DNA of 64,000 nt from Rhizobium sp. NXC24 (GTDB lineage Bacteria; Pseudomonadota; Alphaproteobacteria; Rhizobiales; Rhizobiaceae), in the NCBI RefSeq assembly GCF_002944315.1, contig NZ_CP024311.1, positions 2,270,501 through 2,334,500 of the forward strand, read 5' to 3'. The position numbers and the translations under genes were made by a program. The notes under the pieces were generated by a model. It was not told the DNA's origin. It did not search any database and was given only the letters and a program-made list of their open reading frames with translations. Every line of letters starts with the position of its first letter. The first letter of the stretch is position 1. This document shows, piece by piece, positions 1 to 9,248 of this stretch.

Positions 1-1
1 C

Positions 2-1855
2 CAGAAGACCGGCGACCTGAAATCGGTGAAGATCTACGCCAATTCGCACTATGTTACACCCCGGCCGACGTTGAATGGCGCCATCAAGGCGATCAAGGAA
101 GAGTTGAAGCTCCGCCTCGCCGAGCTGGAAAAGGCCGGCCGTTTGTTGGAAGCGCAGCGCCTGGAGCAGCGCACCCGCTACGATGTCGAGATGCTGGAAG
201 CCACCGGCTCCTGCCAGGGCATCGAGAACTATTCGCGCTATCTCACCGGCCGCAATCCCGGCGAGCCGCCGCCGACGCTGTTCGAATATATTCCCGACAA
301 CGCCATCATCTTCATCGACGAAAGCCACGTCACCGTGCCGCAGATCGGCGGCATGTACCGCGGCGACTTCCGGCGCAAGGCGACGCTCGCCGAATACGGC
401 TTCCGCCTGCCCTCCTGCATGGACAACCGCCCGCTGCGCTTCGAGGAATGGGACGCCATGCGCCCGGACACGATCGCGGTGTCGGCAACGCCGGGCGGCT
501 GGGAGATGGAGCAATCCGGCGGCGTCTTCGCCGAACAGGTCATCCGCCCGACCGGCCTGATCGACCCGCCGGTCGAAGTCCGCTCCGCTCGCACCCAGGT
601 CGACGACGTGCTCGGCGAAATCCGCGAGACCGCCGCCAAGGGCTACCGTACCCTCTGCACCGTGCTGACCAAGCGCATGGCCGAGGACCTGACGGAGTAT
701 CTGCATGAACAGGGCGTGCGCGTCCGCTACATGCACTCCGATATTGACACGCTGGAGCGCATCGAGATCATCCGCGATCTGCGCCTCGGCGCCTTCGACG
801 TGCTCGTCGGCATCAATCTGCTGCGTGAAGGCCTCGACATTCCCGAATGCGGCTTCGTCGCTATCCTCGACGCCGACAAGGAAGGGTTCCTGCGCTCGGA
901 AACGTCGCTGATCCAGACGATCGGCCGCGCCGCGCGTAACGTCGACGGCAAGGTCATCCTCTATGCCGACACCGTTACCGGCTCGATGCAGCGGGCGATG
1001 GAGGAAACCAGCCGCCGCCGCGAAAAGCAGATGGCCTATAACGAGGAAAACGGCATCACGCCGGAATCGGTTAAGGCGAAGATTTCCGACATCCTCGACA
1101 GCGTCTACGAGAAGGACCACGTCCGCGCCGATATCGGCGGCGCCTCCGGCAAGGGCTTTGCCGATGGCGGCCATCTCGTCGGCAACAACCTGCAGGCCCA
1201 TCTCAACGCGCTGGAAAAACAGATGCGCGACGCCGCCGCCGACCTCGACTTCGAAAAAGCCGCCCGCCTGCGCGACGAAATCAAACGCCTCAAAGCCGCC
1301 GAACTCGCCGTCATGGACGACCCGATGGCCCGCGAAGAGGCAAGGAACATTGAAGGCGGCAAAATTGGCCGCCCCAATCCTTCGAGGCCCCGGTCCCCTT
1401 CGACAAACTCAGGAGCCTCCGCACCTCAGGATGAGGACGGAGCAGGCGCCGCATCGGGAGGTAGAGGCAACCCTCATGGTGAGGAGGCCCGCAGGGCCGT
1501 CTCGAACCATGAGGAGGAAGCGCAGCGCTCTTATTTCGCCAAGCCCACCCTCGACGAAATGGGCCCCGGCAGCGACGCCGGCACGCCCCTCTTCCGCAAA
1601 AAAACCAGTTCGGACGCCTTGTCCGGCACAGCCGGGCAAGATAGCGAATCCGAGCAAGCAAGAACTCGAGGCTATTTCCGAAGGAATAGCCTCGACGAAA
1701 TGACCGTCGGCAGGACGGAAAAGCCGGTCCTCGGCAAGGTGCCGGACAAGCCGATCATCCGCGCGAAGCCGGGCGTCGGCTCCTATGAGGATGCGGTGGA
1801 TGAGAAGCAGCGGAAGGGCCGGACCAAGGGCAAGACGGGGCGGCCTGGGAGGTAA
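2..1855 (+). CDS. uvrB: UvrABC excinuclease subunit B (5' truncated by window)
   Basis: UvrB is the damage-loading helicase-like subunit of nucleotide excision repair. The frame is open from base 2, so the gene starts outside the window; the first in-frame GTG at 26 is not the true start. Visible features are the DESH box near residues 98-101 counted from base 26, the SATPGGWE motif, the [13 protein letters not shown] and QTIGRAARN helicase motifs, and a C-terminal UVR motif ([17 protein letters not shown]). After the UVR motif there is a long low-complexity tail, longer than in E. coli UvrB. Part of that tail is encoded by an intergenic-type palindromic repeat (1379-1514). The last ~165 bp recur at 4039-4203 beyond the arsenic genes. 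Family assignment is certain; the function of the tail is unknown. Confidence 0.97.
1379..1514 (+). repeat. Palindromic intergenic-type repeat inserted in frame in uvrB
   Basis: This stretch contains CCTTCGAGG, CACCTCAGGATGAGG, CCCTCATGGTGAGGAGG and AACCATGAGG blocks typical of short palindromic repeats scattered between rhizobial genes. The blocks CCTTCGAGG and TCAGGATGAGG recur in the intergenic element at 14070-14228. Here the repeat is read through in frame and encodes roughly 45 Pro/Ser/Gly/Glu-rich residues of the UvrB tail. Confidence 0.65.
1666..1695. repeat. Perfect 11-bp inverted repeat inside the uvrB tail
   Basis: TCGAGGCTATT, an 8-base spacer, and AATAGCCTCGA form a perfect hairpin. 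It lies just where the tail coding sequence becomes similar to the second uvrB copy at 4039, so it marks or sits beside the junction between divergent and shared sequence. Confidence 0.6.
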
Positions 1856-1909
1856 GCGGATTTCAGTTTTCCAGTGGCAACTTGCGGCTCATTGCGGTCA
1901 TCGCATGGA

Positions 1910-2422
1910 CTACCCGCAGCACTTGGCAGCAGCCGCCGATCCGCAGCAGGCCGCCACTTGAGCCTGTTCAGCCAGCCACCGGTCACGCGGCTTACAACTC
2001 GCCGCGCGGGGAACGAGTTCGACATATAGCGCACCATCGCAGATGACAGGAGTCGATGCGCAATAGAGCCGCATCGGCTGCACACCATCGCTTACCTCAA
2101 AGGTCAGCTTCGCCGAGCCATCAAGCTGAACATGCTCGGAAACCTTGCGAATGATGGCAGCGAACTTGCCCGCAAGCATATAGGTGCGGTTGCCTTCCTC
2201 GATATCCCAGAGCTGCACGAAAATCTCTGCCCATGCTTCCGGATTGGCCCCGCAGTCCAGCGCTGAAAACTGCCCCGCCTTGACTTCGGTGACATGATAG
2301 CCCGGCTTCACCGACCGGCCCTCATAGCGGAATACAAGGGGCAGATCGCGGGAAGCTGCCAATGTCTCAAGCAAAAGGCCAAGGTTGATATCCGAAGATT
2401 GGACCTTGTCGATCGCATTCAT
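1910..2422 (-). CDS. DUF6428-like protein of arsenic operon
   Basis: 170-residue soluble protein with no signal peptide or membrane segment. I read it as a member of the small family found beside arsR in rhizobial arsenic loci (DUF6428), function unknown. The start at 2422 (MNAIDKV) is preferred over the longer frame from 2479, which would run into arsR and the operator. The C-terminus carries two CC pairs (AACCG and KCCG), a possible thiolate site for arsenite, echoing the Cys pairs at the ArsR C-terminus. It is transcribed divergently from arsR across a 42-bp gap, so one operator could control both directions. The metal-binding idea is inference from the cysteines only. Confidence 0.75.
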   Translation of the reverse strand: MNAIDKVQSSDINLGLLLETLAASRDLPLVFRYEGRSVKPGYHVTEVKAGQFSALDCGANPEAWAEIFVQLWDIEEGNRTYMLAGKFAAIIRKVSEHVQLDGSAKLTFEVSDGVQPMRLYCASTPVICDGALYVELVPRAASCKPRDRWLAEQAQVAACCGSAAAAKCCG

Positions 2423-2446
2423 TTGAGATACCCATCGTTTCAACAT

Positions 2447-2462
2447 TTCAAGGATTATTGAA
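2447..2462. promoter_or_regulatory. Candidate ArsR operator
   Basis: The palindrome TTCAAGGATTATTGAA (5-bp arms, 6-bp spacer) lies in the divergent gap. It overlaps the AAGGA ribosome binding site of arsR and ends two bases before its ATG. A dyad at this position fits autorepression by an ArsR-family protein; binding is inferred. Confidence 0.55.
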
Positions 2463-2464
2463 TT

Positions 2465-2818
2465 ATGGATGAACGTCAAGCTCTCGCTTCGTTCGGTGCG
2501 CTCTCGCAGGAGACCCGACTACAGATCATCCGCATGCTCGTCGTTGCCGGTCCGGACGGCATGTCGGCAGGAACAATTGCGGAAAAGCTCGAAGTATCGC
2601 CTTCGAACATCTCGTTCCATCTTAAGGAACTGGATCGAGCCGGCCTCGTCAACCAGCAGCGTGAAGCTCGCTCCATCATCTACACCGCCAATTACGATGC
2701 GCTGAGCGGCCTCGTGCGTTTCCTGATGGAAGACTGCTGCGGGGGCAATCCCGAAATTTGTGCACCAACGGCCAAGGTTGCCGCCTGCTGCGCGCCCGCA
2801 GAGGAAAAAGTTCAATGA
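2465..2818 (+). CDS. arsR: ArsR-family arsenic-responsive repressor
   Basis: 117-residue winged-helix regulator. The helix-turn-helix spans about residues 36-62 (AEKLEVSPSNISFHLKEL). The classical ELCVC motif in the DNA-binding region is absent. Instead, Cys91-Cys92, Cys99 and Cys108-Cys109 cluster in the C-terminal tail, as in ArsR types that bind As(III) near the C-terminus. First gene of arsR-aqpS-arsC. It likely represses this operon and the divergent DUF6428-like gene, releasing DNA when arsenite or antimonite binds. Family is certain; the ligand is inferred from cysteines and neighbours. Confidence 0.93.
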   Translation: MDERQALASFGALSQETRLQIIRMLVVAGPDGMSAGTIAEKLEVSPSNISFHLKELDRAGLVNQQREARSIIYTANYDALSGLVRFLMEDCCGGNPEICAPTAKVAACCAPAEEKVQ

Positions 2819-2848
2819 ACGTCCCGATTTGGTCTGTGGTCTGAAGCT

Positions 2849-3550
2849 ATGACTTTGTTTCCTCTCTCGCGCCGCCTTGCCTCGGAAGCCCTCGGCGCGG
2901 CACTTCTGGTTGCGACCGTCGTCGGTTCGGGCATCATGGCGGACAGGCTGACGACTGATACGGCGCTTGCATTGCTCGCCAACACGCTTGCGACGGGTGC
3001 GATCCTTGTCGTGCTGATTACTGTGCTGGGGCCGGTTTCCGGGGCTCACTTCAACCCGGTCGTATCGCTGGTTTTCGCGCTCCGTCGCGGACTGACCGCA
3101 ATGTCGGCTCTGACCTATATCGTCGCGCAAATCCTTGGTGGCATTGTCGGAACCATTCTTGCCCATGCCATGTTCGAATTGCCCTTGCTTCAAACCTCGA
3201 CCACCATCCGTGCCGGCGGCGCGCAATGGCTTTCTGAAGTAACGGCCACGTTCGGCCTCATCTTCGTGATCCTCGCTGGCCTGCGATTTCGGTCCGAAAC
3301 CGTGCCCTGGCTGGTCGGTCTCTATATCACCGCCGCGTACTGGTTCACGGCTTCCACTTCATTCGCCAATCCCGCCATCGCTATCGCCCGCTCGCTGACA
3401 AACACCTTTTCGGGCATCCGTCCGGTCGATCTGCCAGGCTTTATCGTCGCGGAAGTCCTGGGCGCATTGCTGGCATCGATGCTCGCTAGCTGGCTGTTGA
3501 TGGAAGCCCGCAATCCTCAAACTCCTACAGAAACGGAATCCGCCCCATGA
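2849..3550 (+). CDS. aqpS: Aquaglyceroporin, arsenite channel
   Basis: 233-residue MIP-family channel with about six membrane segments and both asparagine boxes: HFNPVV (Asn69-Pro70-Val71) and FANPAIAIAR (Asn174-Pro175-Ala176). Placement between arsR and arsC matches the Sinorhizobium meliloti arrangement, where AqpS lets arsenite made by ArsC leave the cell down its gradient. No ArsB or ACR3 pump and no ArsH is present here, so this channel is the only visible exit for arsenite. Its stop overlaps the arsC start by 4 nt, indicating coupled translation. Confidence 0.93.
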   Translation: MTLFPLSRRLASEALGAALLVATVVGSGIMADRLTTDTALALLANTLATGAILVVLITVLGPVSGAHFNPVVSLVFALRRGLTAMSALTYIVAQILGGIVGTILAHAMFELPLLQTSTTIRAGGAQWLSEVTATFGLIFVILAGLRFRSETVPWLVGLYITAAYWFTASTSFANPAIAIARSLTNTFSGIRPVDLPGFIVAEVLGALLASMLASWLLMEARNPQTPTETESAP

Positions 3551-3975
3551 GCATGGACGTCACCATCTATCACAACCCGCAATGCGGCACGTCGCGCAAC
3601 ACGCTGGCGATGATCCGGAATGCCGGCATCGAACCGACTGTCATCGAATATCTGAAAAATCCGCCGACCCGCGAACAGCTCGTCAAGATGATTGTGGATG
3701 CAGGTTTGAGCGTCCGCGAGGCAATGCGCGACAAGGGCACGCCCTACGCCGAACTCGGCCTCGACAATCCGGGCCTGACCGACGATCGGTTGCTCGATGC
3801 CATGTTGAAGGATCCGATCCTGATCAACCGCCCATTTGTCATTACGCCGATCGGCACACGCCTTGCCCGGCCTTCCGAGATCGTTCTGGATATCCTGCCC
3901 GACACCCATAAAGGCTCCTTCACCAAGGAAGACGGCGAGCAGGTACTCGATGCCCAGGGCAAACGCCTTGTCTGA
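3547..3975 (+). CDS. arsC: Arsenate reductase, glutaredoxin-dependent
   Basis: 142-residue ArsC of the thioredoxin-fold, glutaredoxin-coupled class. The N-terminal HNPQCGTSRN segment gives the catalytic Cys13, and NRPFVITPIGTRLARP matches the conserved region with arginines that contact arsenate. It reduces As(V) to As(III), which would exit through AqpS. It overlaps aqpS by ATGA. Last gene of the cassette; the duplicated uvrB end begins about 60 bp downstream. Confidence 0.96.
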   Translation: MSMDVTIYHNPQCGTSRNTLAMIRNAGIEPTVIEYLKNPPTREQLVKMIVDAGLSVREAMRDKGTPYAELGLDNPGLTDDRLLDAMLKDPILINRPFVITPIGTRLARPSEIVLDILPDTHKGSFTKEDGEQVLDAQGKRLV

Positions 3976-4018
3976 ACGCGTGCTGCTTCCCGCCGTGCTG
4001 GCCGTCGATGCCGTCAAG

Positions 4019-4203
4019 CCCTCTTCCGCAAGAACACGCTAGACGAAATCACCGTCGGCAGAACGGAGAAGCCGGTACTCGGCAAGGTGCCGGACAAGCC
4101 GATCATCCGGGCTAAGCCGGGTGCCGGGTCCTATGAGGATGCGGTGGATGAGAAGCAGCGGAAGGCCCGCACGAAGGGGAAGACGGGGCGGCCTGGGAGG
4201 TGA
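4019..4203 (+). pseudogene. Duplicated, diverged 3' end of uvrB
   Basis: From about 4039 the sequence matches the last ~165 bp of uvrB (1690-1855) with scattered, mostly synonymous substitutions (roughly nine bases in ten identical by eye), down to a stop codon at the same place (TGA instead of TAA). A weaker match continues left to about 4010 with a frame-breaking difference. It has no start or ribosome binding site, so it is a remnant. It encodes the compact form (LFRKNTLDE...) without the extra tail residues of the resident uvrB. The two copies bracket the ars cassette. Confidence 0.85.
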
Positions 4204-4287
4204 GCCGAGTTAAATTCAAAAAATACGCACATACGGTTTGCCGCATGCGATCAAAATTAACTTAGCTGAAGTACGTAAGGGCCTATA

Positions 4288-4467
4288 TCAAGAACGGCTT
4301 GATTTCAATAACCCTTTGTTTTTCAAAGACTCTTTGATTTGCACGTGTCGCTTATCTGATGTCGCAGATAAACCTTTTGAAGCACGCTCATCTACAATAA
4401 GAGAAGCGTTGTTCAGACGCGCATTGCTGATTGGTAACAACATCGAAAGCTGCTGTTCCTTTTTCAT
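4288..4467 (-). CDS. Small 59-residue protein coupled to avcD
   Basis: A 60-codon frame opens with ATG one base after the avcD stop codon. Its AAGGAGG ribosome binding site lies inside the last avcD codons, 8-9 bases before the ATG, so the two genes are almost certainly co-translated. The product begins MKKEQQLSM and ends KSSRS. It is basic (about 12 Lys/Arg against 5 Asp/Glu), without cysteines, a signal peptide or a membrane segment. It shares the AT-rich composition of avcD. I recognise no family. Possible roles are an accessory or regulatory partner of the deaminase, or a protein antitoxin; these are guesses from position only. Confidence 0.62.
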   Translation of the reverse strand: MKKEQQLSMLLPISNARLNNASLIVDERASKGLSATSDKRHVQIKESLKNKGLLKSSRS

Positions 4468-4468
4468 T

Positions 4469-5977
4469 TTATATCCCCTCCTTTTCTAACACAGGCTGCA
4501 GAACCAATTGCTCGCGAGTTACAAGAGAGTCTAATGGTGGCGATGCCAGCGGCCTAGCGGTCTTAGGTATAACATTCTTTAGCTTACCTGATTCTTTACG
4601 TTCAAGCTTGCCACCAAAAACTCGCGAGAAGCTGGAAGGTGACACACCGGCATACTGCAGAAACGCAACTTTCCCTTTCTCATTGGGATTGGTAGTTATA
4701 GCATCTGAATGCAGCGTCAATGCCAAACTTTTGGGATATGGGTCGATATAAATAACCGCGTCGATCCCGCTTGCCACGATGTGACGAGCGCAATTGTGGC
4801 AAGGAAATGTTGTCGTAAATAATTTAGATCCAACGATCCCACCCTTGCCCAATCTGGCGACGGAGATAATGGCCTCCATCTCAGCATGGACCGCCCTGGA
4901 AAATTCTATAAGGTTTTTGACGTCCGTGTTTCTAAGACTTTGCCTAATGTCAGATGATTTTACGGAATTCCCAACCTTCGCACTAATTTGGTCGAAAAGT
5001 TTATTCTTATGGAAGTCATTCCAACACTGGCACGCCTTCCACTTATAGCATCGATTATCTCCGGATCCGTCGTCAATATTGTAGGTCCCACCCCCAAATT
5101 TTGGCACATCGTTAGCACCTTGACCGATTACCTCGCCCGTCTTTGACACAATTACGGCACCGACCTGCCTGGATAGGCAAGCCGAATTCAAAGAAATACC
5201 GGAAGCAACCTGCATCGCATATTCATCACGCGTAGGGGTTTGAACGCCAATTCCGAAGACCAAATTTAACAAACGATCCACTGCAATCCCGACGTTATCA
5301 GTATTATCTTCGTCATTTCGGAAGAAGACATCAGCATAGTTCATCGTTTTACGAACAGATTGGCCGAAGTCCAGACCTTCATCGTAGTCAGCGTCTTTGA
5401 TCTTGGAGAGATAAGAGGAGTTTGAAACATTACTCTCCAATCTCGAAATTCTCTTATCCTCGGGAGAAAATACACCTATTAACCAAAACAAATCACCGTA
5501 GACCTTTCGCAATACTGCAACTTCCTCTGGATTCTTCAAAGAATCTATTATCGCGCAGAATCGCCTGTCCTCGCCATTTTCAACATCTTTTCTGGATTTA
5601 TTTATTTGATCTATACTTAAAATGGCAAGAACGTCGTTTGAATGCTTCTCTCTAAGTTTGTTGCCGATATGTTGAAGCTTTTCAACTCTCTCCGAATCTG
5701 ACGCATCAACTGTGACAGAACCGACACTCTCAGCACGTTCATTAATTATGTCGCTAATCTTTATAACGTTAGTTTGGTAAGAGAAATTCTCCTCTATTTT
5801 CTTTTTAATAAGACTTGCCACCGTCGACGCACCGGATCCGATAGGCGCAACCATAGCGAAGACAAGCTCTTGCGTTCTCCGTTGATCTAAAGTGACAGGT
5901 TCTTCTTGCTCACCGCTGGCGAATGTCACAGCGGATTCTTCAATTGCTTCGCTTTTTTTATTAAGAATAATTGCCAT
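4469..5977 (-). CDS. avcD: Anti-phage dCTP deaminase (P-loop + deaminase, AvcD type)
   Basis: 502-residue two-domain protein. The N-terminal half is a P-loop nucleoside-kinase-like domain with APIGSGAST at residues 44-52. The C-terminal half is a zinc cytidine/dCMP deaminase fold with HAE at 364-366 and PCHNC at 392-396. This architecture is that of the defence deaminases (AvcD/DCD) that convert dCTP/dCMP to uridine nucleotides and starve phage of dCTP. In Vibrio cholerae the enzyme is held inactive by an upstream RNA, AvcI. The gene is markedly AT-richer than its neighbours and lies between the duplicated uvrB end and an unrelated cyclase, so it looks acquired. The ATG at 5977 has only a weak ribosome binding site (GGTGG). 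Confidence 0.9.
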   Translation of the reverse strand: MAIILNKKSEAIEESAVTFASGEQEEPVTLDQRRTQELVFAMVAPIGSGASTVASLIKKKIEENFSYQTNVIKISDIINERAESVGSVTVDASDSERVEKLQHIGNKLREKHSNDVLAILSIDQINKSRKDVENGEDRRFCAIIDSLKNPEEVAVLRKVYGDLFWLIGVFSPEDKRISRLESNVSNSSYLSKIKDADYDEGLDFGQSVRKTMNYADVFFRNDEDNTDNVGIAVDRLLNLVFGIGVQTPTRDEYAMQVASGISLNSACLSRQVGAVIVSKTGEVIGQGANDVPKFGGGTYNIDDGSGDNRCYKWKACQCWNDFHKNKLFDQISAKVGNSVKSSDIRQSLRNTDVKNLIEFSRAVHAEMEAIISVARLGKGGIVGSKLFTTTFPCHNCARHIVASGIDAVIYIDPYPKSLALTLHSDAITTNPNEKGKVAFLQYAGVSPSSFSRVFGGKLERKESGKLKNVIPKTARPLASPPLDSLVTREQLVLQPVLEKEGI

Positions 5978-6303
5978 CTACACCACCAGAATGGTTCGTT
6001 GAGTCTATCTATGCGAGCATAGTTGCATAATGTAATTCCGCGAGACAGCTAAATCCAAGATAGAAATTTCGAATTAATAATGCGTCGTGAGCGACACAAT
6101 CCGTGTTAAATTGCGATATTGGATTATTTTCTAAGCCGCTGTGGGCAAGGATTGTCGCTGAACTCACCACAACAGAAAGGCTGAGTCCTTCCCCATTTGA
6201 CCCTCAGCGGACGTATGCCCCATTCTCTGCTATACTCTCAAACAACCAAGACAACTCCCAAGGCATGGCCAAACCTGATCGATAGCTGAAGCGCAGGTGC
6301 CAC
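5978..6303. other. AT-rich gap upstream of avcD; possible regulatory RNA region
   Basis: This 326-bp gap separates the divergent avcD and cyclase starts. The 120 bp next to avcD are AT-rich and contain a short dyad, ATGCgagcatagttGCAT, near 6013-6030. In Vibrio the AvcI inhibitory RNA is encoded just upstream of avcD, so this is where a counterpart would be. I see no diagnostic RNA structure, and no convincing ORF on either strand. Confidence 0.3.
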
Positions 6304-7749
6304 ATGACTGACGTTCAGGAAAGGCTCCTTGAAAGCAAGATCATCGAGATCGAGCAGGCCCGGTCTTGGAGTCCGCGGATCATCTCCAAATTAGAAGCGC
6401 TGATCCGCAGCGGTGACGACTTGTCCCTCTATCGCATCAATCCCCTGGCCTTCGCTCGCGACCGTGCCATCGCGGAGGCGGAAAGTATTGATCTGTTTCT
6501 CCATGCCACCCGAAACGGATTGTTCGAGATGAGCTGGGATGTGGTGTGCCCGCAATCCGGCATGGTGCTCGACAGTTTCGGCGCGCTGCGAACGTTGAAG
6601 ACCCACTATGTCTGCGGTCTGTGCGACGTCAGCGGCGAAACCAACCTAGATGACTTCATCGAGGTCACCTTCACGGTGTCGCCGCACCTCCGCCGGCTGC
6701 CCTTTCATGATCCCGGCTCGCTCTCAGTCGAGGATTTTCACTGGAAGGCGCGATTCCTGAGCGACGCGCGAATACCCGGCCAACAGGTCCGCTTTCTCGA
6801 TGTCCTGCAGGGACTGGTTCGTGGACTCTCTTTTCTGCCGCCTAGCTCGGTCACGACGTTGAGGGCGGAGCTCGGTCCCGGCGCCCTGGCGGGCATCAAT
6901 GTCCAGACCCAGGCGAGTTTTGCATTGCCGGTCGTAGGCGAGCCGGTAACGGAGCCGACGCGCTTGCGGATCGGATATGACGGGCAACGGTTTTCCGCTT
7001 CGCTGCCGGCAGCGCCGCCCGGCCCTGTCATCATCGACGTGCAGAACTCCGGTGCCGTGCGTGGCTCGTTGCTGCTGATCAATTGGCCGCCGGAAATCCT
7101 CGCGCAGACAATCAAGCCGGCCCTCGACTTCGATCCTTACATGTCGGGCGGGATGCTGCTGGCCCGACAGACATTTCGGCGCCTGTTCCGCTCGGAAAAC
7201 GTCGATGAGAAGGAAGGTCTGGGTATCCGTCAGGTGACCCTCCTGTTCACGGACATCAAGGGGTCGACCGCCATGTATGAGCGGCTTGGCGATCTCAATG
7301 CCTATGCGCTGGTTCGCGAGCATTTCGCACTGCTCGGTGCGACGGTGCAGGAGCACTCAGGCGCGATCGTCAAGACAATCGGCGACGCCGTGATGGCTGC
7401 CTTCTCTCGTCCGGCGGATGCTGTCTCGGCTGCGCTGCACATTCTGGGGGTCATCGAGCGCTACAATGCCGCGCATGGCGACCCGAGCCCTATCCTGAAG
7501 ATCGGAGCCCATTGCGGCCCCTCGATCGCCGTGAGCTTGAACGAAAACCTCGATTATTTCGGCCAGACCGTCAATGTTGCCGCACGCGTGCAGTCGCTGG
7601 CTGACGCGGGGGAAATATGCATTTCCGAAGCGCTGTTTGCGGCGCCCGGTGTCAGCCAACTCCTCGCCGGTCAAAGACTGGTCGCCTTCGAAGCTCCTCT
7701 CCGGGGCGTCGAGGGAATTGCATGCGTATACCGCGTGATGCCCAATTAG
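6304..7749 (+). CDS. Class III adenylate/guanylate cyclase with DUF5939-type N-terminus
   Basis: 481-residue protein. The N-terminal ~290 residues form a sensory region resembling DUF5939, with a possible metal knuckle (Cys82, then Cys104 and Cys107 in YVCGLC). The C-terminal class III catalytic domain starts near residue 305: LLFTDIKGST supplies metal-binding Asp317, and KTIGDAVMAAF supplies Asp361. It presumably makes cAMP or cGMP; the substrate is not settled from sequence alone. No membrane segment. An IS110-family element follows directly downstream. Confidence 0.88.
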   Translation: MTDVQERLLESKIIEIEQARSWSPRIISKLEALIRSGDDLSLYRINPLAFARDRAIAEAESIDLFLHATRNGLFEMSWDVVCPQSGMVLDSFGALRTLKTHYVCGLCDVSGETNLDDFIEVTFTVSPHLRRLPFHDPGSLSVEDFHWKARFLSDARIPGQQVRFLDVLQGLVRGLSFLPPSSVTTLRAELGPGALAGINVQTQASFALPVVGEPVTEPTRLRIGYDGQRFSASLPAAPPGPVIIDVQNSGAVRGSLLLINWPPEILAQTIKPALDFDPYMSGGMLLARQTFRRLFRSENVDEKEGLGIRQVTLLFTDIKGSTAMYERLGDLNAYALVREHFALLGATVQEHSGAIVKTIGDAVMAAFSRPADAVSAALHILGVIERYNAAHGDPSPILKIGAHCGPSIAVSLNENLDYFGQTVNVAARVQSLADAGEICISEALFAAPGVSQLLAGQRLVAFEAPLRGVEGIACVYRVMPN

Positions 7750-9248
7750 ATGGGATATTCGGCTTTGCGTCTCAGCGTTGACCATTGTGGCTTGCGGTGC
7801 TGCGCTTCTGGCTGATGGTAAAACGAGGTCATGTCTTTCAACAGCCTCAAACATCAAAGGGAGAAGCGCAGCATGAAACACTATTGTGCACTGGATGTAT
7901 CGGTGAAAGAGACCGCGGTCTGCATTGTTGATGAGACAGGCAGGATTTGCCGGGAGACGAAAGTTGCCACTCACCCTGAGGATTTGATCTCGGTGATCAA
8001 GGATCCGAAGTGGCAGATTGAGCGGATCGGTCTTGAAGCCGGACCACTATCGCAATGGCTTTATGACGGACTTGCCAAGGCAGGATTGCCGGTGATCTGC
8101 ATCGAGACCAGGCATGCCAAGGCATTTTTGAAAGCCCAACCGAATAAGACGGACCGCAACGATGCGCGTGGCATGGCCCAGATGATGCGCGTCAATCTCT
8201 ATCGGCCTGTGCATGTGAAGACATTGACGAGCCAGAAGCACCGAGCATTGCTGACCGCGCGCAAACTTTTGCAGGAAAAAGCCATCGCCATCGCGAATGA
8301 CATTCGCGGATTGTTGCGCAACTTCGGTCTGAAAGTCGGATTGGTCGGCAAGATCAAATTCGAGGAGCGGATCAATGAGCTCGTCGAAGACAGGCCTGAT
8401 CTACACGAAATCATGCAGCCATTGTTGGCTGCACGCAAACTGTTGCGCAACGAGTTCACCAAGCTGCACAAGAAGGTTTTGGATTTGGTCCGCGAGGATG
8501 AAGTCTGTCGCCGATTGACGACGATCCCTGGTGTCGGCCCCGTGGTCGCTCTCACCTATACGGCAACCATCGATATTCCTGCGCGGTTTGCACATTCAAA
8601 GACGGTCGGTTCTGTGCTCGGGCTGACGCCGAAACTGAACGAGTCTGGTGAAAGCAAGCGGGTCGGGCGCGTATCCTGTTGCGGTGACGCGATGATGCGA
8701 TCCCTGCTGTACGAAGCAGCGCAAGTCCTGCTTGTAAACGTCAAGAAATGGTCGTGGCTAAAGGCCTGGGCGATGAATATCGCTAGGCGTCGCGGGAGGC
8801 AAAAGGCGGTTGTAGCGTTGGCTCGACGGCTTGCGGTGATCATGCATCGCATGTGGAGTGACGGAACCGAATTTTGCTGGACACGGGAGAGCTTGCCTGT
8901 TGCTGCGTAGTTAGCAACCAGGGTAACGAGAAAAAAAGGAGACAAGAAGATTCCGCCGCCGGTGGAAAAGATGTCCTTCGCAGGACGACGGATGGGGTGA
9001 GTTCGCGTGGTTGTCTTGGTACGGTCGTTTATTGCGATCAGGTCGCCAATTAGATTGTTCCGCCCCATTCTTCTGGTCCCATAGTGGGAGGGCCACACAG
9101 GTCGATCCCGGAGAGAAGCGCGATACTGCGAAGACATCGATCACCATAGCTACGGACAGTCAGAAGGTGCTTGACCTCACCACGCCGAATAGAGAAGACA
9201 TCGCTGGAGGCACCGCCGATACCCTAAGTCCGCCGGTCTCGCCTCCCC
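7750..9248 (+). mobile_element. IS110-family insertion sequence (ends not resolved)
   Basis: The element lies between the cyclase stop and the end of the ROK gene; true ends are inside this interval. IS110-family elements lack ordinary terminal inverted repeats and make no target duplication, so I cannot place the termini. About 120 bp precede the transposase start and about 340 bp follow its stop. The longer 3' flank contains a stem-loop, GTCCTtcgcAGGAC at 8973-8986. IS110 elements specify target and donor through a bridge RNA from a non-coding end; here the 3' flank is the larger candidate. Confidence 0.55.
7873..8910 (+). CDS. IS110-family transposase
   Basis: 345-residue DEDD/serine transposase, complete for the family. 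The N-terminal RuvC-like domain shows CALDVSVKET (first Asp), IGLEAGPLSQWL (Glu) and KTDRNDARGMAQ (Asp pair). The C-terminal Transposase_20 domain has TIPGVGPVVALT and GRVSCCGDAMMR with the candidate catalytic Ser. ATG 7873 follows a GGGAGAAG ribosome binding site, so the longer frame from 7831 is not used. No frameshift or internal stop is visible, so it could be active. Confidence 0.92.
   Translation: MKHYCALDVSVKETAVCIVDETGRICRETKVATHPEDLISVIKDPKWQIERIGLEAGPLSQWLYDGLAKAGLPVICIETRHAKAFLKAQPNKTDRNDARGMAQMMRVNLYRPVHVKTLTSQKHRALLTARKLLQEKAIAIANDIRGLLRNFGLKVGLVGKIKFEERINELVEDRPDLHEIMQPLLAARKLLRNEFTKLHKKVLDLVREDEVCRRLTTIPGVGPVVALTYTATIDIPARFAHSKTVGSVLGLTPKLNESGESKRVGRVSCCGDAMMRSLLYEAAQVLLVNVKKWSWLKAWAMNIARRRGRQKAVVALARRLAVIMHRMWSDGTEFCWTRESLPVAA

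Follow-up and report, generated by a model that had tools for sequence, protein, structure and literature searches.

AvcD, an antiviral dCTP deaminase, must stay silent until infection. A small protein whose gene is coupled to that of the enzyme and evolves fast would suit the part of restraint or adaptor. The locus analysed here raises the question of whether AvcD has a dedicated partner of this kind, as an avcD gene in our window (the whole stretch of DNA analysed, 64,000 nucleotides of Rhizobium sp. NXC24, to which all positions refer) is directly followed by a 59-codon open reading frame (ORF). In the excerpts available of two published studies, AvcID consists of the AvcD enzyme restrained by an RNA inhibitor, AvcI (PMC10511110, PMC12409362), and no protein partner of AvcD is named in the titles or abstract starts that our searches of open-licence PMC papers listed.

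The avcD locus and its probable island setting

We assign the window gene to NF041025/AvcD by its score, its P-loop and its HAE/PCxxC motifs. It matched NCBIfam NF041025 (anti-phage dCTP deaminase) with 468.7 bits against a cut-off of 400, over positions 1-437 of the 437 in the profile, and the PADLOC dCTPase model with 538.1 bits. The three motifs described in a first-pass annotation of this DNA are present at the residues it gave, namely the P-loop APIGSGAST (44-52), HAE (364-366) and PCHNC (392-396), and the HAE and PCH-C columns are invariant in our AvcD alignment. Relatives of the protein numbered 5,278 at E ≤ 1e-3 (7,996 scored). Sequence search found no solved AvcD structure, and comparison of the AvcD model with the PDB pointed to a resemblance to dCMP deaminases and adenylate-kinase-like proteins.

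The same annotation had reported that the 59-codon ORF has its AAGGAGG site in the last avcD codons and encodes a basic protein. Re-reading the sequence bore this out: the ATG lies one base past the avcD stop, nine bases separate it from AAGGAGG, and the product carries 12 K/R and 5 D/E. No Pfam, NCBIfam or PADLOC model matched the small protein at E ≤ 1, tblastn against plasmids returned nothing, and a single-sequence search found only the protein itself, a 95% relative and a 59% relative (Rhizobium sp. BK491). Three matches would suggest a local oddity; the family became visible only on comparing avcD neighbourhoods.

A defence module of shared AT-rich composition at an island site had also been proposed, and both points are supported. 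The G+C content is 0.40-0.48 in 500-base windows from 4251 to 6250, against 0.50-0.67 elsewhere in positions 1-7500. Furthermore, a 193-nt direct repeat of the uvrB 3' end (Table 1) brackets a DUF6428-arsR-aquaporin-arsC block, with the avcD module right after its second copy. Islands may settle at the uvrB end repeatedly: among 60 genus genomes searched, G059 and G027 likewise had an extra uvrB-end match, and in G095 (locus L007) an ORF with a uvrB-like end, as judged by eye, is followed after about 130 bp by an AvcD of another clade. An IS110-family transposase gene is located near the module, at 7831-8910.

Table 1. Features of the avcD locus, in window coordinates
Feature	Position	Strand	Basis or remark
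Small partner gene, 59 aa, basic	4288..4467	-	ORF directly downstream of avcD
C-terminal conserved stretch KRHVQIKESLKNKGLLKS	4300..4353	-	Alignments; corresponding part a helix in models of two relatives
QLSMLL, small-protein residues 6-11, place of the clamp-binding-like motif	4435..4452	-	Family motif counts
AAGGAGG ribosome-binding site of the small gene	4477..4483	-	Sequence, inside last avcD codons
avcD, anti-phage dCTP deaminase, 502 aa	4469..5977	-	NF041025, PADLOC dCTPase, intact motifs
avcD layout (502 aa): N-terminal part with P-loop, C-terminal part zinc deaminase			
Second, partial copy of the uvrB 3' end	4024..4216	+	88% to 1676-1868

A small-gene family beside one AvcD clade

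We compared avcD neighbourhoods from genome contigs (80 loci, the best 80 of 371), viral contigs (33), relatives' genomes (9), plasmid and phage records (12) and a class-wide draw (30, many of them unrelated short deaminases). Keeping full avcD frames and removing near-copies left 142 loci: our own, 78 from genome contigs, 30 from viral contigs, 6 from relatives' genomes, 12 from plasmid or phage records and 15 from the class-wide draw.

Of the 109 loci having an avcD ORF, 64 showed Q[LM]x[LMF] within the first 50 residues of the ORF next downstream; one of these matches, in a 128-aa ORF (L073), was set aside as a chance match. Under a fixed definition (an ORF of 40-110 aa, starting ≤60 nt from the stop, with the pattern in its first 45 residues), such an ORF was found after 58 of the 104 avcD genes, and after 3 of the 481 further long ORFs that the loci contain, a comparison that is not independent, because the motif had already been noticed in these loci; the test on fresh genomes given below is independent. 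Split-half profiles, each trained on one half of 59 motif-bearing ORFs and searched against 17,382 ORFs, gave 35 and 38 matches at E ≤ 1 in loci outside the training half, 30 and 34 of them downstream of avcD. Eight of their nine matches elsewhere, in six loci, lay just before avcD, and the remaining one (L043) was on the opposite strand and not just before avcD. Likewise, a profile seeded with 62 downstream ORFs matched, at E ≤ 0.1 in the 142 loci, 65 downstream ORFs (nearly all of them seeds) and 7 of 262 upstream ORFs, against 0 of 19,326 others (Fisher p 7e-14). A later profile at E ≤ 5 matched 76 downstream and 14 upstream ORFs in these loci, 85 of the 90 at E ≤ 1. Altogether, a member of the family lies beside avcD in 103 of the 142 loci, downstream in 83 and upstream in 20 (13 of the 103 assigned by eye); in one alignment the small-only rows were misaligned and were hence dropped.

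Outside these loci, a profile search of a large protein set gave 26 weak, unnamed matches, and the ten that were read by letters resemble the profile members. Scanning 79 small proteins gave no NCBIfam match and no named Pfam, NCBIfam or PADLOC family model; two of them match one unnamed PHROG (1.9e-43), one matches another, and three Pfam entries and one PADLOC candidate were hit weakly by single members (E 0.006-0.008).

In a tree of the 137 AvcDs of 430 aa or more (FastTree, drawn open), 110 form one clade with a local support of 94, comprising 81 loci with the small gene downstream, 20 with it upstream, 2 run-on frames and 7 unlabelled rows. The profile found no family member beside the 27 AvcDs outside the clade; by-eye additions were made only inside it, the loci outside were eyed in part (L141-L151 left out), and the contig of one of them (L121) lacks downstream sequence. 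The first-pass annotation would have failed had the small ORF been missing next to related avcD genes. Instead, we found it beside 106 of the 110 clade members (88 by profile, 13 by eye, two run-on and three later by eye), and the other four (L101, L103, L106, L112) are on contigs without upstream sequence. Read by eye, L110 has an intact upstream small ORF, L073 an upstream ORF carrying QLPLDL, and L108, an E. coli-type locus, an upstream small ORF (4727-4912) with an internal stop, the locus being otherwise near-identical to L107 and L110, where the ORF is intact. The two run-on avcD frames (L017, L041), which continue into the small ORF, look like a frame change at the avcD end, and a first reading of them as gene fusions was set aside.

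By record labels, the clade covers Pseudomonadota and Bacteroidota, with one locus each from Nitrospirota, Acidobacteriota, Deferribacterota and Myxococcota. The upstream subclade includes E. coli ETEC H10407 p58 and plasmids of Photobacterium and V. coralliilyticus. In L130 and L131, avcD is on small plasmids of about 4.6 kb from E. coli and Klebsiella, and one avcD plasmid record of that size has three annotated genes, the small upstream gene among them.

The translational coupling claimed for the window recurs in the family: with start codons chosen by our own rule, 44 of the 83 downstream ORFs begin ahead of the end of the avcD stop, and 67 begin within 30 nt of it. As in type II toxin-antitoxin pairs, the gene of the small protein thus overlaps or adjoins that of the putative toxin.

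The independent test came from a later draw of 398 Pseudomonadota genomes, in which we read 14 new avcD loci, their clade being judged by score and not by tree. A small ORF was found beside all four AvcDs of about 440 bits or more, three of which are independent, as the ORF of L167 is that of L044 and is clear only to a profile containing it. Beside the ten AvcDs of about 387 bits or less there was none (in L178 and L179 the contig ends on one side).

Is the small ORF a gene? For the seven closest pairs, whose proteins have an amino-acid identity of 0.67-0.85, pN/pS ranges over 0.21-0.45, third positions being the most changed; between the window and Neorhizobium vignae (L011), pS is 0.83 and pN 0.30. 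Over all 110 pairs pN/pS is 0.49 in frame against 0.61 to 0.91 in control frames, a comparison that leans on the amino-acid alignment, so only the closest pairs were used. Moreover, in six E. coli chromosomal variants, fetched from the 48 genomes with a match among 5,426, the 61-aa upstream ORF is intact in all six and annotated as a hypothetical protein in three. A lack of codon-level conservation would have spoken against the initial proposal; selection on the protein is seen in 7/7 close pairs. By comparison of these close pairs, we could show that the small ORF has the signature of a protein-coding gene.

Altogether, the comparison of sequences shows a small-gene family that appears to belong to one large AvcD clade, in which gene order varies while linkage stays. 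The proposal of a dedicated small partner is thereby strengthened, with a family kept far beyond Rhizobiaceae, selected on its protein in close pairs and tightly coupled, and we regard the small protein as almost certainly a conserved, dedicated partner of AvcD.

A clamp-like motif and the proposed role of the small protein

The family alignment opens with a short hydrophilic part, followed in most downstream members by Q-L-x-L-x-F/L. A variable linker then leads to a short V-V/I-x-F/L stretch, and the C-terminal stretch is amphipathic. A terminal W is found in 16/20 upstream and 6/83 downstream members. A loose pattern finds the motif in 72/83 downstream members, a count inflated by a pattern written after the sequences were seen and by seeding the family on motif-bearing ORFs, and in 3/20 upstream members (75/103 overall); shuffled small proteins gave 3.8/103 on average and 10 at most. 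A strict pattern retains 61/83 downstream and 3 upstream members (64/103 overall). Position 2 is mostly L, position 3 mostly S, E or N, position 4 L or F and position 6 F or L; of the two published spacings, the five-residue one is seen in L052 and L086 (QLDLF and QLELF), and the six-residue one occurs as well. The QLSMLL of the window fits the strict pattern and departs from the consensus at position 4.

According to the excerpted texts, the clamp-binding consensus is QL[S/D]LF or QxxLF (PMC12309361), the QLSLPL of Hda is a tight clamp binder (PMC12309361; PMC3836487), and a transposase clamp motif reads QLxLF (PMC4549789). Downstream members thus usually carry what resembles a binding motif for the sliding clamp DnaN; the segment is of low confidence in the two relatives modelled. 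We considered a transfer of the motif into AvcD in the upstream subclade, and rejected it since 0/20 of the AvcD ends there carry it. With the motif in 3/20 upstream members and in none of their AvcD ends, clamp binding cannot be general. Whether the small protein contacts DnaN is, from its motif, an evenly balanced call.

We ran AlphaFold2 on two read-through chains of AvcD and small protein, one with the gene downstream (L047) and one with it upstream (L079). In both, AvcD folds with high confidence and the small part with low confidence, with one C-terminal helix of low to middling confidence (571-587 in L047, 45-62 in L079). Neither chain gave a confident contact between AvcD and the small part, a lack that says little, given the few aligned rows over that part.

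Phages reshape replication, and our best guess, which we would put at about an even chance, is that the small protein is a regulatory or targeting subunit linking AvcD to the replisome. Its C-terminal part would contact AvcD and its N-terminal motif the DnaN clamp, so that the small protein would tie the state or place of the deaminase to the replisome. Most likely it would be an antitoxin-like restraint that gives way once a phage seizes control of replication or stops host expression; AvcD would then be freed by losing its partner or by a changed replisome. In our judgement, restraint is a somewhat better bet than activation. On this reading, the AvcI region of the upstream subclade would be the source of the same protein, and may act both as RNA and as message. 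The fullest form of this proposal, in which all AvcD systems of the clade are two-protein systems, the small protein binds DnaN and makes dCTP destruction depend on the state of the replisome, and the AvcI region of the upstream subclade also encodes this protein, we consider rather doubtful.

A plain type II antitoxin is the alternative that survives best, and we hold it to be possible, with clearly less than an even chance. The small protein would bind and inhibit AvcD, and Q-L-x-L-x-F/L would be an AvcD-binding strand unrelated to the clamp. The protein is indeed small, basic, coupled and faster-evolving than the enzyme (identity between the window and L012 of 0.40, against 0.81 for AvcD), its gene stays with avcD when the gene order differs, and the published AvcD is restrained by an inhibitor, as the excerpt of PMC10511110 has it. 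However, the five- and six-residue spacings and the frequent S, E or N at the third position resemble the clamp motif, and AlphaFold2, with its few aligned rows there, did not place the segment on AvcD.

The AvcI region and comparison with known systems

AvcI is encoded adjacent to avcD (PMC12409362), and in V. parahaemolyticus its transcript is about 280 nt long, with no terminator predicted between avcI and avcD (PMC10511110), as far as the excerpts go. Where the small ORF immediately precedes avcD, in the upstream subclade, it adjoins that gene as the published AvcI does, and the p58 record annotates a 61-aa hypothetical protein whose end is 12 nt short of avcD. We infer that AvcI and the upstream ORF overlap and that the ETEC system tested was that of p58. 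The upstream form, its position in common with AvcI and the clamp-like motif go beyond what the first-pass annotation had proposed.

An AvcI-type inhibitory RNA beside avcD, with the ORF incidental, would have the published RNA inhibitor adjoining avcD as its precedent (excerpts of PMC10511110 and PMC12409362), and we consider it very unlikely here. The RNA of the small gene in the window (4280-4480, minus strand) is more stable than shuffles (z -2.8 and -2.6), but in seven relatives the signal is weaker or missing (z from -1.6 to 0.6), which counts against the RNA reading. In the upstream ORF of L107/L111 (4727-4912), pS is 0.51 against 0.79 in avcD, as if RNA and protein were both constrained; the gap is smaller in L130/L131 (0.63 against 0.73), and between the window and L011 the small ORF is not below avcD (0.84 against 0.83). 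The RNA reading is further opposed by the protein-level selection in all seven close pairs and by an Rfam scan of nine loci, which placed no family at the gene pair and gave two RNAI matches at other places on plasmids. Nor did we see conserved sequence upstream of avcD in the window, L011, L012 and L013, where 350 nt align at 37-45%, a figure taken without a shuffled baseline.

To an independent small gene hitch-hiking with avcD on islands, with a role of its own, we give a very low chance: although interaction with AvcD is our inference, the gene is present clade-wide, in several phyla and in both gene orders, and searches found neither another copy of it within its genome (E ≤ 1) nor any match in the 147 other genomes of the genus (E ≤ 0.01, by a single-sequence query that would miss divergent copies).

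A clade-wide protein partner, if true, would change how AvcD systems are cloned and tested, and could explain restraint where AvcI-like sequence is not evident. If the two-protein reading is true, AvcID would not be a pure RNA-antitoxin system, and the clamp motif, if real, would tie immunity by nucleotide depletion to the machinery of replication.

The small-protein family shares with Hda and other short-motif clamp binders a Q-L-x-L-x-L/F near the N-terminus, and differs from them in its length of about 60 aa, its deaminase partner, its lack of a Pfam domain and a motif known from sequence. Among toxin-antitoxin systems, SocAB (through SocB) and RipAB (through RipA) involve the clamp, as described in the excerpt of PMC12795458. 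Like the pair proposed here, they are two-gene systems linked to DnaN; there, in the same excerpt, the toxin acts on the clamp, whereas here the enzyme is a deaminase and its small partner bears the motif. Another close counterpart is AvcID of Vibrio and E. coli, classed as a type III toxin-antitoxin system, which likewise combines an enzyme of the AvcD family with an element directly beside avcD, and the AvcD of E. coli ETEC H10407 p58 falls in the same clade as that of the window. In AvcID, this element is an RNA, and the excerpts name no protein partner; in the window, by contrast, it is a protein-coding gene, located downstream.
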